From Paenibacillaceae bacterium GAS479 (GTDB lineage: Bacteria; Bacillota; Bacilli; Paenibacillales; Paenibacillaceae): a stretch of DNA of 64,000 nt. Positions within the stretch are counted from its first letter, which is position 1, and every line of letters starts with the position of its first letter. The DNA lies in contig LT629764.1 of NCBI GenBank assembly GCA_900105225.1, forward strand, positions 2,078,501 to 2,142,500, read 5' to 3'. The notes under the pieces were generated by a model that saw only the letters and a list, made by a program, of their open reading frames with translations, was not told the DNA's origin and did not search any database. Positions 24,091-32,796 of the stretch are shown piece after piece. The position numbers and the translations under genes were made by a program.

Positions 24091-24756
24091 TTATCTAAAC
24101 TGGCTCACCGAGAGGATTCCAAGCCGCTTCGCCTCTACAATTGCCTCCGATCTTGAGCGTACACCAAGCTTCTCAAAGATGCGCGTAAGGTTGTATTCTA
24201 CGGTGCGCTGGCTCATAAGCAGCTTGCTCGCAATATCCTTGTTGCTGCTGCCGCTGGCGACTTCCTGCAGAATCTCCTGCTCGCGCTCGTTGATGCTGAC
24301 CTCTTCGAGCGCTTTCTCCTCGCGATCCTGATTCACCCGAATATCGCGACGCCGAAGCTGACGCAGCAGCGACACCGGAACAACCGCTTCATCTCGCAAA
24401 ACGCAGCGAATTGAAGTCAGGAGCTGCTCGCGGGAAGCCGTTTTGCTCACAAAGCCGCTAACACCCGACTCAATCAGCAGATTGAAGTTCGGGCTAATCT
24501 CATAACCGGTGTAAATCAGGATTCGGTAATCCGGTCCTGCGGCCATTAGCCGCTTGGTTAGCTCCAGACCGCTGATAATCGGCATGTTCAGATCGAACAG
24601 CATGACGTCGAATGTTTCTGTCTTGACCAGCTCCAGTGCCTCCATCGCCGAATAAAGAACCGTCACATTCATCTCGGGGTCCTGCTCAATCATCGTTTTG
24701 GTTCCTTCGCCCACGGAAGGGTGGTCGTCAACCAGCAAGATTCGAATCATGCCCAT
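24091..24756 (-). CDS. comA: ComA-type response regulator (NarL/LuxR family)
   Basis: Receiver with DDH pocket, EGTKT and phospho-acceptor Asp55 (LFDLNMP) when counted from ATG 24756, followed by IYTGYE and SKT. Asp55, EGTKT and YTGYE all recur in B. subtilis ComA. The C-terminal LuxR helix-turn-helix is INEREQEILQEVASG, then MSQRTVEYNLTRIFEKLGVRS. It is the transcription factor of the quorum system: phosphorylated by ComP, it activates density-dependent genes. ATGs at 24765, 24756 and 24750 are all possible starts; each overlaps the comP 3' end, so translation is coupled. Confidence 0.88.
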   Translation of the reverse strand: MGMIRILLVDDHPSVGEGTKTMIEQDPEMNVTVLYSAMEALELVKTETFDVMLFDLNMPIISGLELTKRLMAAGPDYRILIYTGYEISPNFNLLIESGVSGFVSKTASREQLLTSIRCVLRDEAVVPVSLLRQLRRRDIRVNQDREEKALEEVSINEREQEILQEVASGSSNKDIASKLLMSQRTVEYNLTRIFEKLGVRSRSEAIVEAKRLGILSVSQFR

Positions 24757-27112
24757 CTTTCCCATCTTCTCCTTCACTCACTGCCGTCTTCTCCGGCAGC
24801 CAGATGTCAACTTCAAGCCCTTCGCCCGGTTCTGAGAAAAAACGGATCTTGCCGGCAAGGCTGCGTACCCTCTCCTTAATGCCCGACAAGCCCATATGCT
24901 GGTAGGAATCTCCCAACTTCTCCTGCGCCAGCCCGATCCCATCGTCTTTGTACCTTAGGCGAATGCCATTCTCCTGCCCTAGCTCGATCCAGATACGTGA
25001 GGCTTTGGCATGTTTGCCGGCGTTCACGAGCAGCTCCTGCACGATGCGGAACAGCGTCAGCGTTGCCTCGTCACTCAGTGCTTCTGTCAGCGGCCCGGCC
25101 TCGAACTCAATGGAGTAGTTCGCCCGAATCTGCTGTTGCTCGAACAGGCTGCGCAGCGATTCGACAAGCCCCATCTCCGTGAGCAACGGCGGTCTCAGCT
25201 CGTTGCAAGTTTCCCGGATCTGATGAATAACGTCCAACAGCCCCTCCCGGATGTCCGTCAAATCGTTGCGCAGCTCCTCCGAAAGCTCATGATCGAGCAT
25301 GGCGGCCTCCAGCTTGCGGTACCAGATTAGCTGATCCTGCAAAGCGGAATCATGCAGATCCGACGCCAGCTTGCGGCGCTCGCTCTCGGCCAACTGGAAG
25401 ATCATCCGCAGCACCCAGGTTGGCGTGCCCTGCCGCTTGGACATTTCTGCTTCCAGGTCACCGATCAAATTCTCAATCAAATATAGATTCTCATAAACGA
25501 TTGCACTGTAGTTAGCCAGCGTCTTGAGCCAACTCAGCTCATCGAGATTAAACTTGGTTCGGTTAGTTTTATCGCCTACCCATAGAATATGATAGGTCGA
25601 CCTTTTTTGCCCGATTACGACAGCCAACCCTCTCGAAAGCACAACGGCAACTCCGACTGCCAGCTTGCGCCCGCTCTCCGCCAGTTCCCGTACTGCTTGC
25701 GCAGCGACTTGTTCATTTTCTGGAGTTGGGGCCGATGCAGTTTGACCAGGCTTGCCCGTTGTTCGATTCATCGAGGCGGCATCCTGCTCATAACTGAAAA
25801 ATTTCACATCCCGGATCGGAAGAATCGTGCGAATTTCCTGTTCCAGCACCCGCTCCAGGTCAGCCTGCTTCATGACCCTAGAGATGCGCGATGAAAAGCG
25901 GTCCAGACTGCCTTGAAAGTTATTTAAATCCTTGCTCCACTTTGGCCGCAACCGGTGATCCAGAAATTCCTTGCCGAACAGAAATACAGTGATCAGCAAA
26001 TAAACAATTAAAAACAGCTGTACCCAATTCAGCCACGGCAATTGGTTCTGGCTCATAATGAGCACAGCCAGGCCGGTAATAATCAGTGTCGGGACAAACG
26101 CAAGCATCGTGTAGTATGAAAACCGACTAAGAAAAAAGTCGATGTCAAACAACCGTTGGGTCGTGAACATGTACAGGTAGACCAAGGGTAGCCCTAATAA
26201 ACAGATTGCCGCAGCTTCTACCGGAATGAAAGGCACGCCGAATAGTCTAGGTACGCCAAATAATAGCAGAAACGGCAGAAACCCGACCATTTGGCCGAGC
26301 AGCGTCAGTTTAAAAAGCGACTTCAGGTCACTCTCTCGATGCGCAATATACTCACGAATCAGCTTGTAGAGAATATAAAGATTGCCAAGCGCAAAGTAAG
26401 CCATTAGAACTTCCGGCTTTATTCCGATGAATCGGAAAACTTCTACTACCTGAAGCAGAAGGTTCAACACAAAGCCGCCCCACATAACGGTCATAACCTT
26501 GCGGGAAGCAAAAATCTTTCCGTATCTCAACAAGTAGCGATTCAGAAACAATAGAAATGTAAGCGGAACAGCGGGAAATGCAATTGTCATGATGGTCCTG
26601 CCAATCAGATCGCCTTTTCCTGAGGAAAAAGAACTTAGATAAGCAAGCCCTATACTGAGAAAAAACAGAATGAGATATATAGCTGCCGGATCTTCTTTTT
26701 TTCGACGGTAAACAAAAAAAGCAAAGGATGCAAAGACCAGCATAGAGAGACTTGGTAATATCAAACGGAAAACCAGTTCATTGCGCGTAAGATCGCTGGG
26801 AATATCAAAGGACAATTCCTGAGACTCTCCTGCGCTCTCCCGGACAATTTTAATGGAGGATGCCATCTCCAAATATTCAAAGGTTCGAAGTACAAAGGAT
26901 TCACTCGGAGACTCGCCGTTGACCTCGACGAGCAGATCACCTGGCTGCAGCTTTCCTTCCGCCCAGAATCCCGGATCTATCGTATCAACTCGATATTGAT
27001 TCCCCTGAACCGGATGTGCATCCACTCCTATCAGCGGGAACAAGGCAATACTTCGAATTAGATACAACACCGCCAGAAAAATACAAAGGGTGAACCCAAT
27101 TACCTTATGCAG
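24728..27112 (-). CDS. comP: ComP-type membrane histidine kinase (pheromone receptor)
   Basis: Layout as in ComP: an N-terminal membrane anchor, an extracytoplasmic PDZ-like segment (YRVDTIDPGFW, KLQPGDLLVEVNGESPSE), then about nine further membrane helices to about residue 380, a linker, HisKA_3 with His587 (SERRKLASDLHDSALQDQ) and an HATPase domain (QELLVNAGKHAKAS, YKDDGIGLA). The start is unusual: a GTG at 27070 has no ribosome site and cuts the first helix, whereas CTG at 27112, eight bases after AAAGGGT, gives HKVIGFTLCIFLAVLYLI and a complete anchor. It begins 30 bases after comX. Confidence 0.88.
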   Translation of the reverse strand: MHKVIGFTLCIFLAVLYLIRSIALFPLIGVDAHPVQGNQYRVDTIDPGFWAEGKLQPGDLLVEVNGESPSESFVLRTFEYLEMASSIKIVRESAGESQELSFDIPSDLTRNELVFRLILPSLSMLVFASFAFFVYRRKKEDPAAIYLILFFLSIGLAYLSSFSSGKGDLIGRTIMTIAFPAVPLTFLLFLNRYLLRYGKIFASRKVMTVMWGGFVLNLLLQVVEVFRFIGIKPEVLMAYFALGNLYILYKLIREYIAHRESDLKSLFKLTLLGQMVGFLPFLLLFGVPRLFGVPFIPVEAAAICLLGLPLVYLYMFTTQRLFDIDFFLSRFSYYTMLAFVPTLIITGLAVLIMSQNQLPWLNWVQLFLIVYLLITVFLFGKEFLDHRLRPKWSKDLNNFQGSLDRFSSRISRVMKQADLERVLEQEIRTILPIRDVKFFSYEQDAASMNRTTGKPGQTASAPTPENEQVAAQAVRELAESGRKLAVGVAVVLSRGLAVVIGQKRSTYHILWVGDKTNRTKFNLDELSWLKTLANYSAIVYENLYLIENLIGDLEAEMSKRQGTPTWVLRMIFQLAESERRKLASDLHDSALQDQLIWYRKLEAAMLDHELSEELRNDLTDIREGLLDVIHQIRETCNELRPPLLTEMGLVESLRSLFEQQQIRANYSIEFEAGPLTEALSDEATLTLFRIVQELLVNAGKHAKASRIWIELGQENGIRLRYKDDGIGLAQEKLGDSYQHMGLSGIKERVRSLAGKIRFFSEPGEGLEVDIWLPEKTAVSEGEDGKDGHDSNLAG

Positions 27113-27142
27113 CTGACTTCACCCTTTCTTCTCGATTAAACT

Positions 27143-27322
27143 TTACATCCAAGCATCGATTTGAAGAAGGCGCGACTCACTTCCACTTTCCCGCTTACTC
27201 ACCACGTCGACGAACGCTCTTTGCTCCACGTCGCTAAGTCCTGCCAGTTGAAGTTGTCCACCTTGAGTGCGCAACAGAGAACCTGGATCCTTAACCATAG
27301 CCTGAATCATTTCCTTCAACAT
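27143..27322 (-). CDS. comX: ComX-type quorum-sensing pheromone precursor
   Basis: 59 residues. The start ATG at 27322 has GGAGGG seven bases upstream. The first 40 residues, beginning MLKEMIQAMVKDPGSLLRTQ, fit the ComX prepeptide pattern: a short amphipathic start, an NPE-like DPG, then GGQLQLAGLSDVEQRAF. The C-terminus is RLLQIDAWM, with a single tryptophan at position 58. In ComX family members a C-terminal Trp is prenylated by ComQ and the last 5-10 residues are released. Gene order comQ-comX-comP-comA on one strand supports the call. A -10-like TATAGT at 27372-27377 may give comX its own transcript. Trp as the penultimate residue is unusual to me. Confidence 0.87.
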   Translation of the reverse strand: MLKEMIQAMVKDPGSLLRTQGGQLQLAGLSDVEQRAFVDVVSKRESGSESRLLQIDAWM

Positions 27323-27638
27323 TGTACATCCCTCCGATTCGTGTTTAAGAGCGTTGTCATCTCTTAATTACACTATAACAAGGAGTTTGCGCGGCGAAAA
27401 CGAAAAGCATTCTAGTAGTTCCCACAAACCTCATTGCGTCCCGCTTGCGGTGTGTTGCGGGGGTGGTAGCGGGCTGCAGCCAGCTGATGCGCGGACCCGC
27501 CAACTGCATTGCCCTAGCTGCGTTATCTGCTTAAGGAGCTGGTCCAACATCACGGCTGCTCCTAGCTGCAGAATTGAACGGAACAGCGTTGACCTACCTG
27601 CGTCAACCTGCGCGCTGGCAGAGCTGATCCCGCCGCGC
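27323..27638. other. Long comQ-comX spacer, no gene accepted
   Basis: 316 bases between comQ and comX, GC-rich and stem-prone near 27440-27620 (for example GCAGCTAGGAGCAGC and nearby complements). In B. subtilis the two genes touch or overlap. No ORF here has a ribosome site; the comX promoter candidate lies at its low-coordinate end. Confidence 0.5.
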
Positions 27639-28643
27639 CTATTCAGCCAGCGCCAGCATTTCCTCCTGCCAGCCCGCGTCCAGGTTAAGCTCTCCAAGCA
27701 GATCAAGAAAGCGATAATAATGCGTCCTCATCCGGACGGAGGAGTAGAGCATAGTACCCGTCTTCTCCATGATTACTTCGAGCTCTTCACGCCGATTCAG
27801 GACATCCTCCATTGTCAGCCGTCCTTCAAAGTAGTCCAGAACCCAGCGGTCCTCGTCGGTTACCGCCTGCAGCAGAAACAGCGTGGGCAAGGTACGCTTG
27901 CGATTTAGAAAATCATTTTTGTTGTCCCAATTAGCCAGATCGCGAATATCGTTCTTGATCTGAGCCGCTATGCCGAGCTGCTCGGCGTAGCCGCGCACTT
28001 GCTCCATCCATTCACCGGTGGCGAGCATCGTGCCGATCATGCATGCGCATACGAGCAAGGCAGCCGACTTCTGGCTCACCATGTCGAGATATGCTTCTTC
28101 ATCGGGAATCTCATTGAGCAGGTCAAGCGTCTGGCCATGCACGGCGGTGAGCACCTGCATACTCAGCAACCGGGCTGCCTGCCGAGCGCGTTCCGACTCG
28201 AAGCCGCCTTCCAACAGCAGCCGCTGAGCGATCATCAACATGCCGAGCGCCAGGTTAAGCGTAATTTCCGGTGCATACCCATTCCACACGACCGACTTGT
28301 TATCCTTATCCTGCACATCATCGATCATATCGAGGCTGAGAACCATCAGCTCTACCGCAGCCGCAGCGCGATAGATCCGCTCATCCTCACCGGCGAACAT
28401 CCGGTAGTGTAGCACGGTCATTTTGCCAAAAAGCAGCGATTCCTGCAGCTTCTCCTCCAGGCAGGCCTGCGCCATCTCCTGCAACTGCGGTAGTACGAAG
28501 TATGAAGCCAGACTCTCTCTCATCTCATGTCCTAATCGCTCCGCCAACGCTGACACGGTATCCCCCCTGTTCTGATTCATATGCCTCATGTATGCCTGCC
28601 CAACCGCTGCCGCATATGAATAATGTCCTATGACATATTCCAT
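27639..28643 (-). CDS. comQ: ComQ-type isoprenyl transferase
   Basis: Trans-isoprenyl-synthase fold: first aspartate-rich motif DDVQD at residues 108-112 within LSLDMIDDVQDKDN, and a second, incomplete one, NDIRD at 231-235. The loss of the second DDxxD is a hallmark of ComQ compared with chain-elongating synthases. It should transfer a geranyl or farnesyl group to the ComX tryptophan in the cytoplasm. ATG 28643 has only a distant AAGGAAA; GTG 28556 (V-S-A-L-A) has GGGGGGA five bases away and is the better start on that ground, shortening it by 29 residues. First gene of the comQXPA unit. Confidence 0.85.
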   Translation of the reverse strand: MEYVIGHYSYAAAVGQAYMRHMNQNRGDTVSALAERLGHEMRESLASYFVLPQLQEMAQACLEEKLQESLLFGKMTVLHYRMFAGEDERIYRAAAAVELMVLSLDMIDDVQDKDNKSVVWNGYAPEITLNLALGMLMIAQRLLLEGGFESERARQAARLLSMQVLTAVHGQTLDLLNEIPDEEAYLDMVSQKSAALLVCACMIGTMLATGEWMEQVRGYAEQLGIAAQIKNDIRDLANWDNKNDFLNRKRTLPTLFLLQAVTDEDRWVLDYFEGRLTMEDVLNRREELEVIMEKTGTMLYSSVRMRTHYYRFLDLLGELNLDAGWQEEMLALAE

Positions 28644-28786: not shown

Positions 28787-28820
28787 AACCTCCTATCCCA
28801 CGGGATGAGGGGGAGGTCTT
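28787..28820 (-). repeat. Tandem stem-loop 3, overlapping the GntR stop
   Basis: Minus strand: ACCTCCCCCTCATCCC GT GGGATAGGAGGT. Same CATCC/GGATR core as the two others; begins within the stop codon region of the GntR gene. Confidence 0.55.
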
Positions 28821-29278
28821 CAGGCATCTTCTTTGTCGGGGATGGAAGCCAGCAGCTCTCGCAGCAGCTCTTCCATTTCCTCTGAGGCCATGCCATGCCT
28901 TATTCCAGTGCCGACAGCGCTGCGGAAAGCTTCAAAAACGAGTGCACGGGACCAGGAGCGGCGAGCGGATTGGCCTTCGTCATCAGATCGGACAAAAGTC
29001 CCAATTCCTTTTTGAATAGAGAGCAGACCTTCACGCTCAAGATCCAGATAAACTCGCCTCACTGTTATAAGACTACAATTGAGCTGCCGAGACAAATCCC
29101 GTAGAGACGGTAAGTGAAAGTCCGGCGGCAATGTACCGCTGCGAATCAGTCGGCGAAGCTGGTCACGAAGCTGCACATAAAGAGGCATCGAGGAAGTGTG
29201 CGAGATAGAGAGAGGCAACACTTCAGGAAGAGAGGGCGCCGGCCGCTCCCCCTGAGGACGATCAGCTCCGTACCGCAC
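28820..29278 (-). CDS. GntR-family regulator, YtrA type
   Basis: Winged helix PLYVQLRDQLRRLIRSGTLP, HLPSLRDLSRQLNCSLITVRRVYLDLEREGLLSIQKGIGTFV, followed by a short tail with no large effector domain; this is the YtrA subgroup, which usually controls a linked ABC exporter. The frame is open to 29380 but that would overlap the DUF4177 gene by 119 bases; GTG 29278 or a later GTG/TTG near 29223 is more likely, and none has a good ribosome site. Last gene of the DUF4177/SagB-like group. Confidence 0.78.
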   Translation of the reverse strand: MRYGADRPQGERPAPSLPEVLPLSISHTSSMPLYVQLRDQLRRLIRSGTLPPDFHLPSLRDLSRQLNCSLITVRRVYLDLEREGLLSIQKGIGTFVRSDDEGQSARRSWSRALVFEAFRSAVGTGIRHGMASEEMEELLRELLASIPDKEDA

Positions 29279-29459
29279 GTTCAAAAATGAGTTCGAACCA
29301 AGTTGCAGTGCCGTAGCCATGCGTACCAGGTGCAAAAATCTGGAATAATCTCCAGTCCTCTCCGGCATGCTCGCGGACAATTTCCCGGTAGTCTTGCTTC
29401 GGTTTGCTCTCGAAAACGCCCTTCAGTTCGACTTTGACGAATTTATATTCATACCTCAT
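29262..29459 (-). CDS. DUF4177 domain protein
   Basis: 65 residues starting RYEYKFVKVELKGVF and ending GTATWFELIFER, the pattern of the small DUF4177 fold. Function unknown. Its ATG overlaps the preceding stop by four bases (ATGA), so it is coupled to the SagB-like gene. Confidence 0.8.
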   Translation of the reverse strand: MRYEYKFVKVELKGVFESKPKQDYREIVREHAGEDWRLFQIFAPGTHGYGTATWFELIFERAVRS

Positions 29460-30259
29460 CTCAATTCAGCCTCCTTATGCATCATCAGGCAGGAAAGCAC
29501 AACTTCATAATGGCCATCCAAGCCGAGCAGCTCATGCACTCGGTTATCGTAGAAGCCAAGCACCGACTGCAGGCTGCAGCCCGTTCCCGGCGCGCAGGCG
29601 GCCAGCCGCTCCGTAAGGCGTCCGCCCTCCAGCAAGCTCAGCCGATAACCACGCTCTCCGAACAGTTGCAGCGTACGGCGCAGATTGGCGGCGATGAACA
29701 CCGCTCCCTCCAATGGCGCAGGAGCAATGGAGGGGTCGAACAGCGTTGAACTGCGCTCCTCCGCTATGGAACCGAGCGATTGCAGACAATCTCCATGCGG
29801 GTGAAAATATAGCAGCTCCAAGCCGCCAGTCGCCTGACTGCGCGAAAGCATATACAGCTCCGGCGAATCTAGCGCCGCTCCTCCCAGCTCCTCCAGCGCC
29901 CCGAAGTCCGCAAACGGTTGCGACTCGGGCTGCGTTTCCCGTAGACGGCCCAGCAGTTTCTTCACTGCCGGATGAGCGCTCAGCCCGCTCGCTTGGCTCA
30001 GCTCCCGGGCTGCCGGACCGAAAAGCTCCGGCTCCTCGGCTCCTCCGTTCGGGAGCTTATAGCGCGGCACGGCATAATAGCTCTTGGCAGGTGTTACTGG
30101 CGCGCTCATTTGCGCGAACAGTTTGCGAAGCATTTTCATCCGGGAACGGGTCAGAACGTCTAACTGAGGATAATGGCTTGAATTGAGGTGGTACGTAAGC
30201 GATAGCCGATCCTCCTCGGCATGGACATCAGCACGCCAATCAATAAACTTGGATTGCAT
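29456..30259 (-). CDS. SagB/nitroreductase-like protein, partial match
   Basis: 267 residues. The C-terminal half follows the SagB/McbC flavin oxidoreductase pattern: GGLELLYFHPHGDCLQSLG, then AVFIAANLRRTLQLFGERGYRLSLLEGGRLTERLA, GCSLQSVLGFYDNRVHELLGLDGHYEVVLS. The N-terminal half (SHYPQLDVLTRSRMK, SYYAVPRYKLP) is only weakly similar. SagB enzymes oxidise azolines in thiazole/oxazole-modified peptides, but stand-alone homologues exist. No cyclodehydratase or precursor peptide gene is seen, so the function is open. ATGA overlap with the DUF4177 gene. Confidence 0.65.
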   Translation of the reverse strand: MQSKFIDWRADVHAEEDRLSLTYHLNSSHYPQLDVLTRSRMKMLRKLFAQMSAPVTPAKSYYAVPRYKLPNGGAEEPELFGPAARELSQASGLSAHPAVKKLLGRLRETQPESQPFADFGALEELGGAALDSPELYMLSRSQATGGLELLYFHPHGDCLQSLGSIAEERSSTLFDPSIAPAPLEGAVFIAANLRRTLQLFGERGYRLSLLEGGRLTERLAACAPGTGCSLQSVLGFYDNRVHELLGLDGHYEVVLSCLMMHKEAELR

Positions 30260-30407: not shown

Positions 30408-31643
30408 TTACTGCGATCTGAGAGCTTTGTAGATCAACCTTGGACTCGGCTTCTGTCCATAGAGCAGTACGCCAACCTTGTAAATCTTAGCGGACATCCA
30501 GCAAGCTAGGCCGCTTGAGGCGAACAGAATCAGCATCGGCACTAAAATTTCCAGACCTGACGGATCGGTTATTCCTATTCTCACGATCATGGCAAATGGC
30601 GTCACGAAGGGAATGTAGGAACCGGAAACAGCGAGCGTGCCTTCGGGATCACCCATCGAAATCAATGCGGTCATGAAGCCTCCCATCATTAAGACAGCGA
30701 GCGGCATTGTCACCTGGTTGACCTCTTCACTGCGACTGACAAGCGAGCCTGCCGCTGCGAACAACGCCGCATAGAAGAAGTAGCCAAGGACGAAAAACAG
30801 CACTACTAGAGCAATCGTTTTGCCGTCCAGAATGGAGAAATCAACCGTGAAGCCGAACAGATCCAAAGCGGCGCTTGAGCCCGAAGCAAGCAGCATGGCG
30901 TAACCGGCGCCGATGATGATCAGGAATTGCAGCAACCCAGCGAGGCCGACGCCGAGCACCTTGCCGAACAACAACTGCTCCGGCTTCACCTTGGTGATAA
31001 GGATCTCTTTGACACGAGAGCTCTTTTCGACGGATACGGACACCGCCACATTGCCTCCGAAAAGATAGATGAGAAAATAGAGCAGCATCGTGATCATATA
31101 GATCGGCAGGTACATCTCCACATAAGACTTGCTGCCTTCTTTAAGCTCCTGCACCTCTACTTGTACAGCAGCGGTCAGGCGATCCTTCTGGGCTGGATCG
31201 AGGACAAGCTTGCTCATCTCGGCATTCGTGTAGAGACTCTGCACATAGCCGTTCAGTTGATTGGAGTAATCGGCATCATCCAGCTTGTTGACTGTGAGGG
31301 ATAACACTGGTTTGCCGGCTTTTTCTTCAAGCGTCGCCAGTCCAAGCCATTGCTCTTCCTTTGCCAGCTGCTCGCGAGCCGCCGGAGCCTCCTCTGCGGA
31401 AATCAGCCTCCAGTCATAAGACGGGGAAACGCTCTGCCTCAAGCCCTCTGGAGTAATAGCCAGCTCCGTTTGGTTCACGACTGCAATCTTTCCTTCCACC
31501 GACTGACCGTCCGACTGCAGGTACTTCGGTAGGAAAATCAGACCTGCCAGCAGCACAACCATGACATAGGTCATCAGCTTGAACGCCTTGGAGCGCAAAC
31601 GTTCCATGAAAGAATAGCGGAATACGAGGCCGAACTGCTTCAT
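30408..31643 (-). CDS. ABC-2 type exporter permease (NatB/YhaP-like)
   Basis: One N-terminal membrane helix (LMTYVMVVLLAGLIFLP), a large outside loop of about 130 residues, then a cluster of five helices (IYMITMLLYFLIYLFGG, ALVVLFFVLGYFFYAALFA, VTMPLAVLMMGGFMTAL) with the conserved SVSVEKSSRVKEILITKVKPEQLLFGK. This is the NatB layout (Na+ or drug export). Overlaps the ATPase gene by ATGA. Confidence 0.9.
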   Translation of the reverse strand: MKQFGLVFRYSFMERLRSKAFKLMTYVMVVLLAGLIFLPKYLQSDGQSVEGKIAVVNQTELAITPEGLRQSVSPSYDWRLISAEEAPAAREQLAKEEQWLGLATLEEKAGKPVLSLTVNKLDDADYSNQLNGYVQSLYTNAEMSKLVLDPAQKDRLTAAVQVEVQELKEGSKSYVEMYLPIYMITMLLYFLIYLFGGNVAVSVSVEKSSRVKEILITKVKPEQLLFGKVLGVGLAGLLQFLIIIGAGYAMLLASGSSAALDLFGFTVDFSILDGKTIALVVLFFVLGYFFYAALFAAAGSLVSRSEEVNQVTMPLAVLMMGGFMTALISMGDPEGTLAVSGSYIPFVTPFAMIVRIGITDPSGLEILVPMLILFASSGLACWMSAKIYKVGVLLYGQKPSPRLIYKALRSQ

Positions 31644-32536
31644 GATACTTCCCCAACCTTTTCAACGAAGATTTCGTGGAGCGTCGGCTCCTTGATCTCG
31701 AACTTCAGCAAGCGAACGCCGACCTCATTCATCGATTGCAGCAAACGATGAGCTTGCTCTTCGCTGTCTACCTTGACCTGCCACTCTTGAGCGGAGGCTT
31801 CTACCGGCTGCATGCCGAAGGCAGTCAAATGCGGAGTCAAATCCTGCTCACTGCGCAGCAGCAGATTCGAGCGGCCATAGGCGCGTTTGATTTCGAGCAG
31901 ACTGCCGGAAACCATCATTTGTCCTCTCTTCAGAATGCAGATCTGGTCGCAGAATCGCTCCACCTGACCCATCTGATGGCTGGAAAAAATCATCGTTTTG
32001 CCCAGTCCCAGCTGGTCCTGGACGATGGAGGCAAGCATATCGGAGTTGATGGGGTCCAGCCCACTGAATGGCTCGTCGAGAATAACTAACTCCGGATCGT
32101 GGATGAGTGCTGAAATGATCTGCACCTTCTGCTGGTTGCCTTTGGACAGCTGCTCAACGCGCTTGTTCTCGTGCTCGGCGATGCCAAGGCGCTCCAGCCA
32201 AGCCTTCATCGATCTGACCGCCACTTGCCGCGTCATTCCTTCCAGTCTGGCGAAGTAAACGAGTTGCTCACTCACTTTCTCCTTTGGATACAGACCTCGC
32301 TCCTCCGGCAAATAGCCAATGCTAGGCCGATTCTCGGTAATCGGACGGCCATTCCATGTCACTGCGCCGGAGTCATAATTGACCAGTCCGAGAATCGAGC
32401 GGATCGTCGTCGTTTTGCCCGCTCCGTTACCTCCCAGCAAGCCGAACGCTCTGCCGGTGCCCGCCTTCAGTGAGATACCGTGAAGCACCGTGTTGCCCCC
32501 GTATCGCTTGATCAAATGTTTGACTTCCAACCCCAT
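31640..32536 (-). CDS. ABC exporter ATPase (NatA-like)
   Basis: Walker A GGNGAGKTT, Q-loop region YLPEERGLYP, signature LSKGNQQK, Walker B LVILDEPFSGLD, H-loop SSHQM, and a C-terminal region ending EPTLHEIFVEKVGE. The start ATG 32536 follows AAGGTGGG by nine bases. Partner of the permease at 30408-31643; substrate unknown. The adjoining YtrA-type regulator and SagB-like genes downstream suggest, but do not show, that a modified peptide is exported. Confidence 0.93.
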   Translation of the reverse strand: MGLEVKHLIKRYGGNTVLHGISLKAGTGRAFGLLGGNGAGKTTTIRSILGLVNYDSGAVTWNGRPITENRPSIGYLPEERGLYPKEKVSEQLVYFARLEGMTRQVAVRSMKAWLERLGIAEHENKRVEQLSKGNQQKVQIISALIHDPELVILDEPFSGLDPINSDMLASIVQDQLGLGKTMIFSSHQMGQVERFCDQICILKRGQMMVSGSLLEIKRAYGRSNLLLRSEQDLTPHLTAFGMQPVEASAQEWQVKVDSEEQAHRLLQSMNEVGVRLLKFEIKEPTLHEIFVEKVGEVS

Positions 32537-32796
32537 TTTGTATCCCACCTTGTCTGTAATATAGGCCAAGGCTGTTTAAGCCGGCTTTGCGTCTTTACAA
32601 TGAACTAATCATAAGTGACTTTTTTCCATTCCACACCGAAAACCATGCTTCGTTTTCCCACAAACCGATTGCGGAAATAGACCGCAATATCTGCTCAAAA
32701 CCGCATCTTTATAAAATTTCGGAATCATTGCGGCCCTTCACTTCAGGGGCGATTTTGTCCGCTATGCCCCGCAAGCAGGCTTGCGGTATGTCCAGA
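32537..32796. other. Intergenic region, no gene seen
   Basis: 260 bases upstream of the NatA-like gene containing inverted GCAAGC/GCTTGC-like segments near 32770. It should carry the exporter promoter. Confidence 0.35.

Follow-up and report, generated by a model that had tools for sequence, protein, structure and literature searches.

How does a ComQXPA quorum-sensing system switch sharply? PMC7794433 poses this question explicitly for Bacillus subtilis, whose system it reports to be free of feedback on signal production. A locus of Paenibacillaceae bacterium GAS479 raises it anew. The locus lies in a 64,000-nucleotide stretch of contig LT629764.1 (hereafter the window, to which all positions refer) and contains comQ, comX, comP and comA, with a gap of 316 bases between comQ and comX. 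This is a genuine and complete ComQXPA locus, i.e., a known kind of system. We assign a probability of roughly 70% to the reading that it operates a circuit specific for the family, with predicted arrays of ComA half-sites both in front of comX and in front of a gene row leading to comQ, this row being a reduced form of a daptide biosynthetic row found in relatives. As feedback on ComX production is reportedly absent from B. subtilis and an operator appears to precede comX here, a self-amplifying ComQXPA system is predicted.

The comQXPA locus and its conservation

The four com genes are adjacent to each other in the canonical order, all on the minus strand, and each matches its expected family (Table 1); the original prediction, which had read these open reading frames (ORFs) as a ComQXPA locus, is thus supported. 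ComQ matches PF00348 (polyprenyl_synt, 73.8 bits), with DDVQD as the first Asp-rich motif and a degenerate second one. In a tree built without B. subtilis ComQ, 33 ComQ proteins (24 from loci of the family, nine from outside) were split with 100/100 support from the two other polyprenyl synthases of this genome, so ComQ stands apart from ordinary synthases. ComX (P0001) was recognized by the ComX model PF05952 (40.3 bits, cut-off 25, E 2.9e-10) as the single match in the whole 5.52 Mb genome. Its size, its ribosome-binding site (GGAGGG at 27330-27335, ahead of the ATG) and its sole Trp at residue 58 of 59 are as first described. ComP contains HisKA_3 and HATPase_c domains, ComA Response_reg and GerE domains (family models), and the best solved match of the ComA DNA-binding domain is B. 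subtilis ComA (2krf, 3ulq). The start of comP is unsure, because a start at GTG 27070 would truncate the first membrane helix; for comA, ATG 24750 seems more likely than GTG 24777.

Table 1. Features of the com region and of the gene row upstream of comQ
Feature	Position	Strand	Remarks
comA	24091..24750	-	NarL/LuxR-type response regulator; 23-base overlap with comP end
comP	24728..27070	-	Histidine kinase; start unsure, may be further upstream by as much as about 45 bases
comX	27143..27322	-	59 aa; C-terminal end QIDAWM
Predicted comX promoter with ComA-type half-sites	27372..27460	-	Sequence pattern
Half-sites of comX promoter	27455-27460, 27445-27450, 27434-27439, 27422-27427		Last two with one mismatch each
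TTTTCG of comX promoter	27401-27406
-10-like TATAGT of comX promoter	27372-27377
comQ	27639..28643	-	334 aa; Trp prenyltransferase, polyprenyl synthase superfamily
GntR-type regulator	28820..29380	-	
DUF4177 protein	29262..29459	-	65 aa
SagB-like protein	29456..30259	-	Partial TIGR03605 match below cut-off; lacks the PSGGA motif of G171-type SagB
ABC-2 type permease	30408..31643	-	Weak SagH resemblance, far below cut-off
ABC transporter ATPase (DrrA-like)	31640..32536	-	Homologous to ATPase of relatives' daptide clusters
Second predicted ComA-type operator and promoter	32608..32786	-	Five exact half-sites in 32669-32786
Core of second operator	32658-32674		CCGCAATCGGTTTGTGG
TTTTCG of second operator	32637-32642
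-10-like TATGAT of second operator	32608-32613

The four families, their order and strand, the size of ComX and its C-terminal Trp are shared with the B. subtilis and non-subtilis ComQXPA systems described in PMC4008528, as is the overlap of comP and comA, described there for the non-subtilis clade. In the PalQ/PalX/PalP system of Paenibacillus alvei (PMC10853753), genes for a precursor and a histidine kinase likewise adjoin that of a Trp prenyltransferase belonging to the isoprenyl synthase superfamily; however, the leader of PalX is described as being of the nitrile-hydratase type and its Trp as C-terminal, whereas the ComX studied here belongs to PF05952 and has its Trp in the penultimate position.

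Among 295 Paenibacillaceae genomes, PF05952 matched in 77, at 83 loci, which are not independent of each other (several genomes per genus; 32 loci come from a single genus, g17). The model missed a comX-like ORF in genome G142, to which the operator search described below led, and gave no match in a control set that includes B. subtilis; therefore these counts are lower bounds. The ORF in G142 (L237) encodes 53 amino acids ending in AFWA, follows an operator and lies ahead of a long ORF. Within the own genus (eight genomes), comX is present in five, always with 59 codons and Trp second from the end; ORF and Trp are thus conserved in the four sister genomes having the locus, yet three of the eight genomes lack it. 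The penultimate Trp had been regarded as a departure from the known arrangement. It is indeed there, but it is the commonest state in the family (64 of 83 loci) and was rejected as a novelty; the last Trp is fourth from the end in 11 loci, third in five, last in one and farther away in two (G211 and G286), near which neither comP nor comA was found. In 71 of the 83 loci comQ ends at most 600 bases upstream of comX.

The nearest named relative as judged by ComQ (94% identity) is Paenibacillus herberti R33. Between the two ComX proteins, 48 of the first 49 residues are identical and only five of the last ten, a divergence of the tail that fits a diverging pherotype without proving it; that the strain has a pherotype of its own, as originally proposed, is plausible but unproven. 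Some loci of the family may be multi-signal arrays: L043, L052 and L045 have one comQ followed by two comX-comP or comP copies, and L037, L046, L072 and L110 have comX-comP pairs with neither comQ nor comA nearby.

A putative ComA-type promoter between comQ and comX

The original prediction gave the length of the comQ-comX gap correctly and flagged it as long, without noticing that it resembles a ComA-type promoter, that a second operator exists and that the RiPP (ribosomally synthesized and post-translationally modified peptide) cluster upstream is reduced. To judge from its sequence, the gap looks like a comX promoter in which ComA half-sites form an array of rigid layout. In B. subtilis, the ComA half-site is TTGCGG, and the canonical repeat is inward-facing with a 4-base spacer (PMC4797271). 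The gaps of the 71 loci with nearby comQ contain 101 exact TTGCGG/CCGCAA hexamers, present in 46 gaps, versus 7.0 in shuffled sequences, and the 12 loci without adjacent comQ contain 31 versus 1.8. The corresponding values are 9 versus 9.8 for the stretch at the comQ start, 3 versus 3.4 after comX and 19 versus 13.0 after comA.

When at most two mismatches in 12 positions are allowed, 60 of the 83 loci, from 10 of 12 genera, have a CCGCAA-N6-TTGCGG site no more than 200 bases upstream of comX (0.47 in shuffles, maximum 2; at most four with permuted half-sites). Same-direction pairs with a 9-base spacer (27/83 versus 0.57 in shuffles) and the canonical repeat (20/83 versus 0.67) are enriched as well. 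Alignment of 47 of the 58 distinct sites (the 11 left out come mostly from genera with other flanks) gave 48 ungapped columns, seven of them invariant. An operator within 260 bases is present in 61 loci, of which 48 have a TTnnCG element 15 bases on and a -10-like box 23 bases later, and eight have no TTnnCG element. Both promoters of the window fit the combined pattern, CGCAA-N5/6-TTGnGG with TTnnCG 15 bases on and a -10-like box another 23 bases on. The half-site is that of B. subtilis ComA (PMC4797271), whereas the arrangement mainly is not: outward-facing half-sites with a 5- or 6-base spacer and fixed downstream elements predominate here. The window itself contains no canonical inward repeat with zero or one mismatch, and its single two-mismatch site (19504) lies outside the locus.

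Where the gap measures at least 60 bases, 56 of 67 loci have the operator, as against none of four where it is shorter; of the 12 loci without adjacent comQ, five have it. PF05952 also matched at 28 places outside the Paenibacillaceae, 27 of them with a locus to examine. In 16 of these a comQ-size ORF with a DxxxD motif lies directly upstream (gap from -71 to 19 bases), and in these no exact half-site occurs within 300 bases; of the other 11 (at least four of which are doubtful comX calls), three have a half-site (L136, L144, L158). The operator thus seems to be tied to the separation of comX from comQ.

When the own genus was searched with a sequence model of the operator (R1), the comX promoter was the top match in each of the five genomes that have comX; in the three lacking comX, no match fell below E 0.22. 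The five own-genus sites were part of the training set of the model. As a finder of a wider regulon, R1 failed: besides comX it gave nothing below E 0.34 in the own genome, and it misses the second operator, the spacer of which has 5 bases. The comX leader also contains an inverted repeat, TTAAGAG...CTCTTAA (27345-27367), with similar ones within the genus; the predicted 5' hairpin is not significant (z -1.58; 14 of 200 shuffles fold equally well).

A second putative operator and daptide clusters of relatives

The design of the comX promoter recurs at the head of the row leading to comQ, as CGCAA-N5-TTGTGG-N15-TTTTCG-N23-TATGAT. The five exact half-sites there fall within 118 bases, a density not matched anywhere in the window by the same letters in any of their 59 other arrangements (at most three per 118 bases). 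An exact CCGCAA-N6-TTGCGG at 32769-32786 was considered as a terminator stem; this was dropped, and the site is part of the second operator. Of 16 extended neighbourhoods, 12 have a single copy of the motif, lying on the com strand ahead of comQ. Among 83 shorter neighbourhoods, in which three scrambled patterns gave no match, 31 have one copy each. In the window it is followed by genes for an ATP-binding cassette (ABC) ATPase, an ABC-2 permease, a SagB-like protein, a DUF4177 protein and a GntR-type regulator, and then by comQ.

The corresponding gene row in eight relatives is a daptide-type RiPP cluster with YcaO. In G178 it comprises genes for an 817-aa protein (matching the model of the daptide RiPP recognition element below cut-off), an aminotransferase (NF041821), tandem precursors of 41-43 amino acids, a protease (NF041824), an ABC ATPase, a permease, a short-chain dehydrogenase/reductase (SDR), a methyltransferase (NF041820), a leader-binding protein (TIGR03882), a SagD/YcaO protein (TIGR03604), a SagB-like protein, DUF4177 and GntR, followed by comQXPA. 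Aminotransferase, protease and methyltransferase exceed the NCBIfam cut-offs in G178, G029 and G107 and are accompanied by precursors, the combination expected of daptide clusters; G029 and G107 agree with G178 for the three proteins tested in each, and the G178 precursor exceeds the cut-off of NF041808 (one peptide run). NF041820 was matched over cut-off in nine of the 295 genomes, in eight of them upstream of comQ, and all eight comQ-linked loci have precursor-like ORFs. Precursors, aminotransferase, intramembrane protease, SDR, methyltransferase, YcaO and ABC transporter are shared with the daptide and YcaO-daptide clusters described in PMC10036551 and PMC12670281, respectively; the clusters of these relatives differ in being joined to comQXPA and in having a ComA-type operator at their head.

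The window genome, which keeps the operator, the ABC transporter and an intact comQXPA, lacks part of this equipment: no YcaO was found in the whole genome, no protein matched NF041820 over cut-off, and no precursor-like ORF was detected on the com strand of the window with our own pattern. Sister genomes have kept other pieces. In P. herberti, a promoter with an identical core is followed by a 415-residue ORF that matches the 817-aa protein along its first half (36% across 410 residues), and in G036 a promoter of the second type immediately precedes the SagB-like gene. These different remnants suggest separate losses, and we infer that the absence of daptide genes from the window genome reflects loss rather than the ancestral state.

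The ninth genome with NF041820, G133 (L285), has daptide precursors and YcaO; 19 kb of its sequence contain nothing that matches comQ or comP, and the genome has no PF05952 match. In G171, G201, G235 and G084 (L088, L090, L091, L092, L245, L246), the YcaO cluster ahead of comQXPA is of another kind and includes a full-length SagB containing PSGGA. A Cys/Ser/Thr-rich precursor of the thiazole/oxazole-modified microcin type was also sought near the YcaO genes; none was convincing, and the daptide precursors explain the enzymes better.

The proposed circuit and its alternatives

According to the functions of the protein families, ComQ would prenylate Trp58 near the C-terminus of ComX, and the secreted peptide would be sensed by ComP, which would phosphorylate ComA. 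ComA~P is then expected to bind the half-site arrays, and to activate from them, before comX and before the row leading to comQ, so that the signal and, given read-through to comQ, perhaps also its maturing enzyme would be amplified by the signal.

Several results weigh against this circuit. No operator lies within 200 bases upstream of comX in 23 of the 83 loci, and the operator nearest the core in the window carries two mismatches. The hexamers show a milder excess within comQ (58 versus 36.1 in shuffles), comX (16 versus 7.8) and comP (62 versus 42.4) too; exact CCGCAA-N6-TTGCGG sites do not discriminate as a regulon finder (two in the own genome, one in the reversed control). Full-length ComA scores best with other solved response regulators, the ComA structure entries covering the DNA-binding domain only. 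Finally, the commonest arrangement, outward-facing with a 6-base spacer, is unlike the known ComA repeats of B. subtilis. Together with the absence of such feedback in B. subtilis, as reported in PMC7794433, this last point would agree with an ordinary ComQXPA system without positive feedback, in which another NarL/LuxR-type regulator uses the sites in the gap or ComA represses, signal production being uncoupled. We regard this as unlikely: the half-site is that of ComA, the enrichment extends to the canonical repeat, and in the own genus the matches of the operator model vanish where the locus is absent (the five positives being training sites).

The neighbouring genes allow two further alternatives to an autoregulated signal locus joined to a reduced daptide row. 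The ABC transporter might export ComX, instead of or besides serving daptides; its genes follow a ComA-type operator and lie beside an intact signal locus, with the daptide genes gone, and the route of ComX out of the cell is called unknown in PMC4008528. We consider this improbable, as relatives of this transporter sit in daptide clusters, P. herberti and G036 have comQXPA and no such ATPase in the stretches searched, and E. coli with comQ and comX yields active ComX (PMC4008528). Still more far-fetched is a second modification of the pheromone, with ComX itself as substrate of the RiPP enzymes of the relatives and of the SagB-like protein here. A SagB-like gene adjoins comQ in 20 of 83 loci, including genomes without recognized daptide genes; however, daptide precursors already supply a substrate, YcaO is described as acting on daptide C-termini elsewhere (PMC12670281), inspection by eye showed no Cys, Ser or Thr common to the ComX tails beside YcaO, and the SagB-like protein of the window lacks PSGGA.

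Tentatively, and at somewhat less than even odds, the autoregulatory reading may be extended to the whole family: ComQXPA of Paenibacillaceae would be a self-amplifying RiPP switch with one promoter design for comX and for the comQ row, controlling daptide-YcaO clusters in part of the family, and several lineages, including this one, would have become listeners or protected non-producers, retaining switch and transporter after loss of the peptide genes. ComQXPA itself and the penultimate Trp are already known; what is new is the putative comX operator, part of a predicted promoter that separates comX from comQ in contrast to B. subtilis, the second putative operator and the link to daptides. 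Our literature search, which did not cover supplements (among them the list of the 180 Bacillota daptide clusters reported in PMC10036551), came upon no ComA operator preceding comX in Paenibacillaceae and no daptide cluster linked to comQXPA. The same proteins with a ComA-type operator before comX make the effect of closing the feedback loop directly testable; the link to comQXPA suggests how Bacillota daptides may be switched on, and a set of genomes is now available in which the communication system is kept and the peptide genes are missing.

Matches to the operator also occur elsewhere. G079, a genome without PF05952 match, has a strong one ahead of an uncharacterized gene. In genus g5 (L231, L233, L234), an operator precedes a 799-aa ORF, ComP-like by eye, with no adjacent comX call, and downstream of comA in four g7 genomes (L038, L042, L044, L071) a comX-type operator precedes a gene for an ABC ATPase. 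In g17 (L221, L222, L223, L225), the operator precedes the gene for a conserved protein of 134-162 amino acids, with a divergent ORF of 421-428 amino acids; these are candidate ComA targets.

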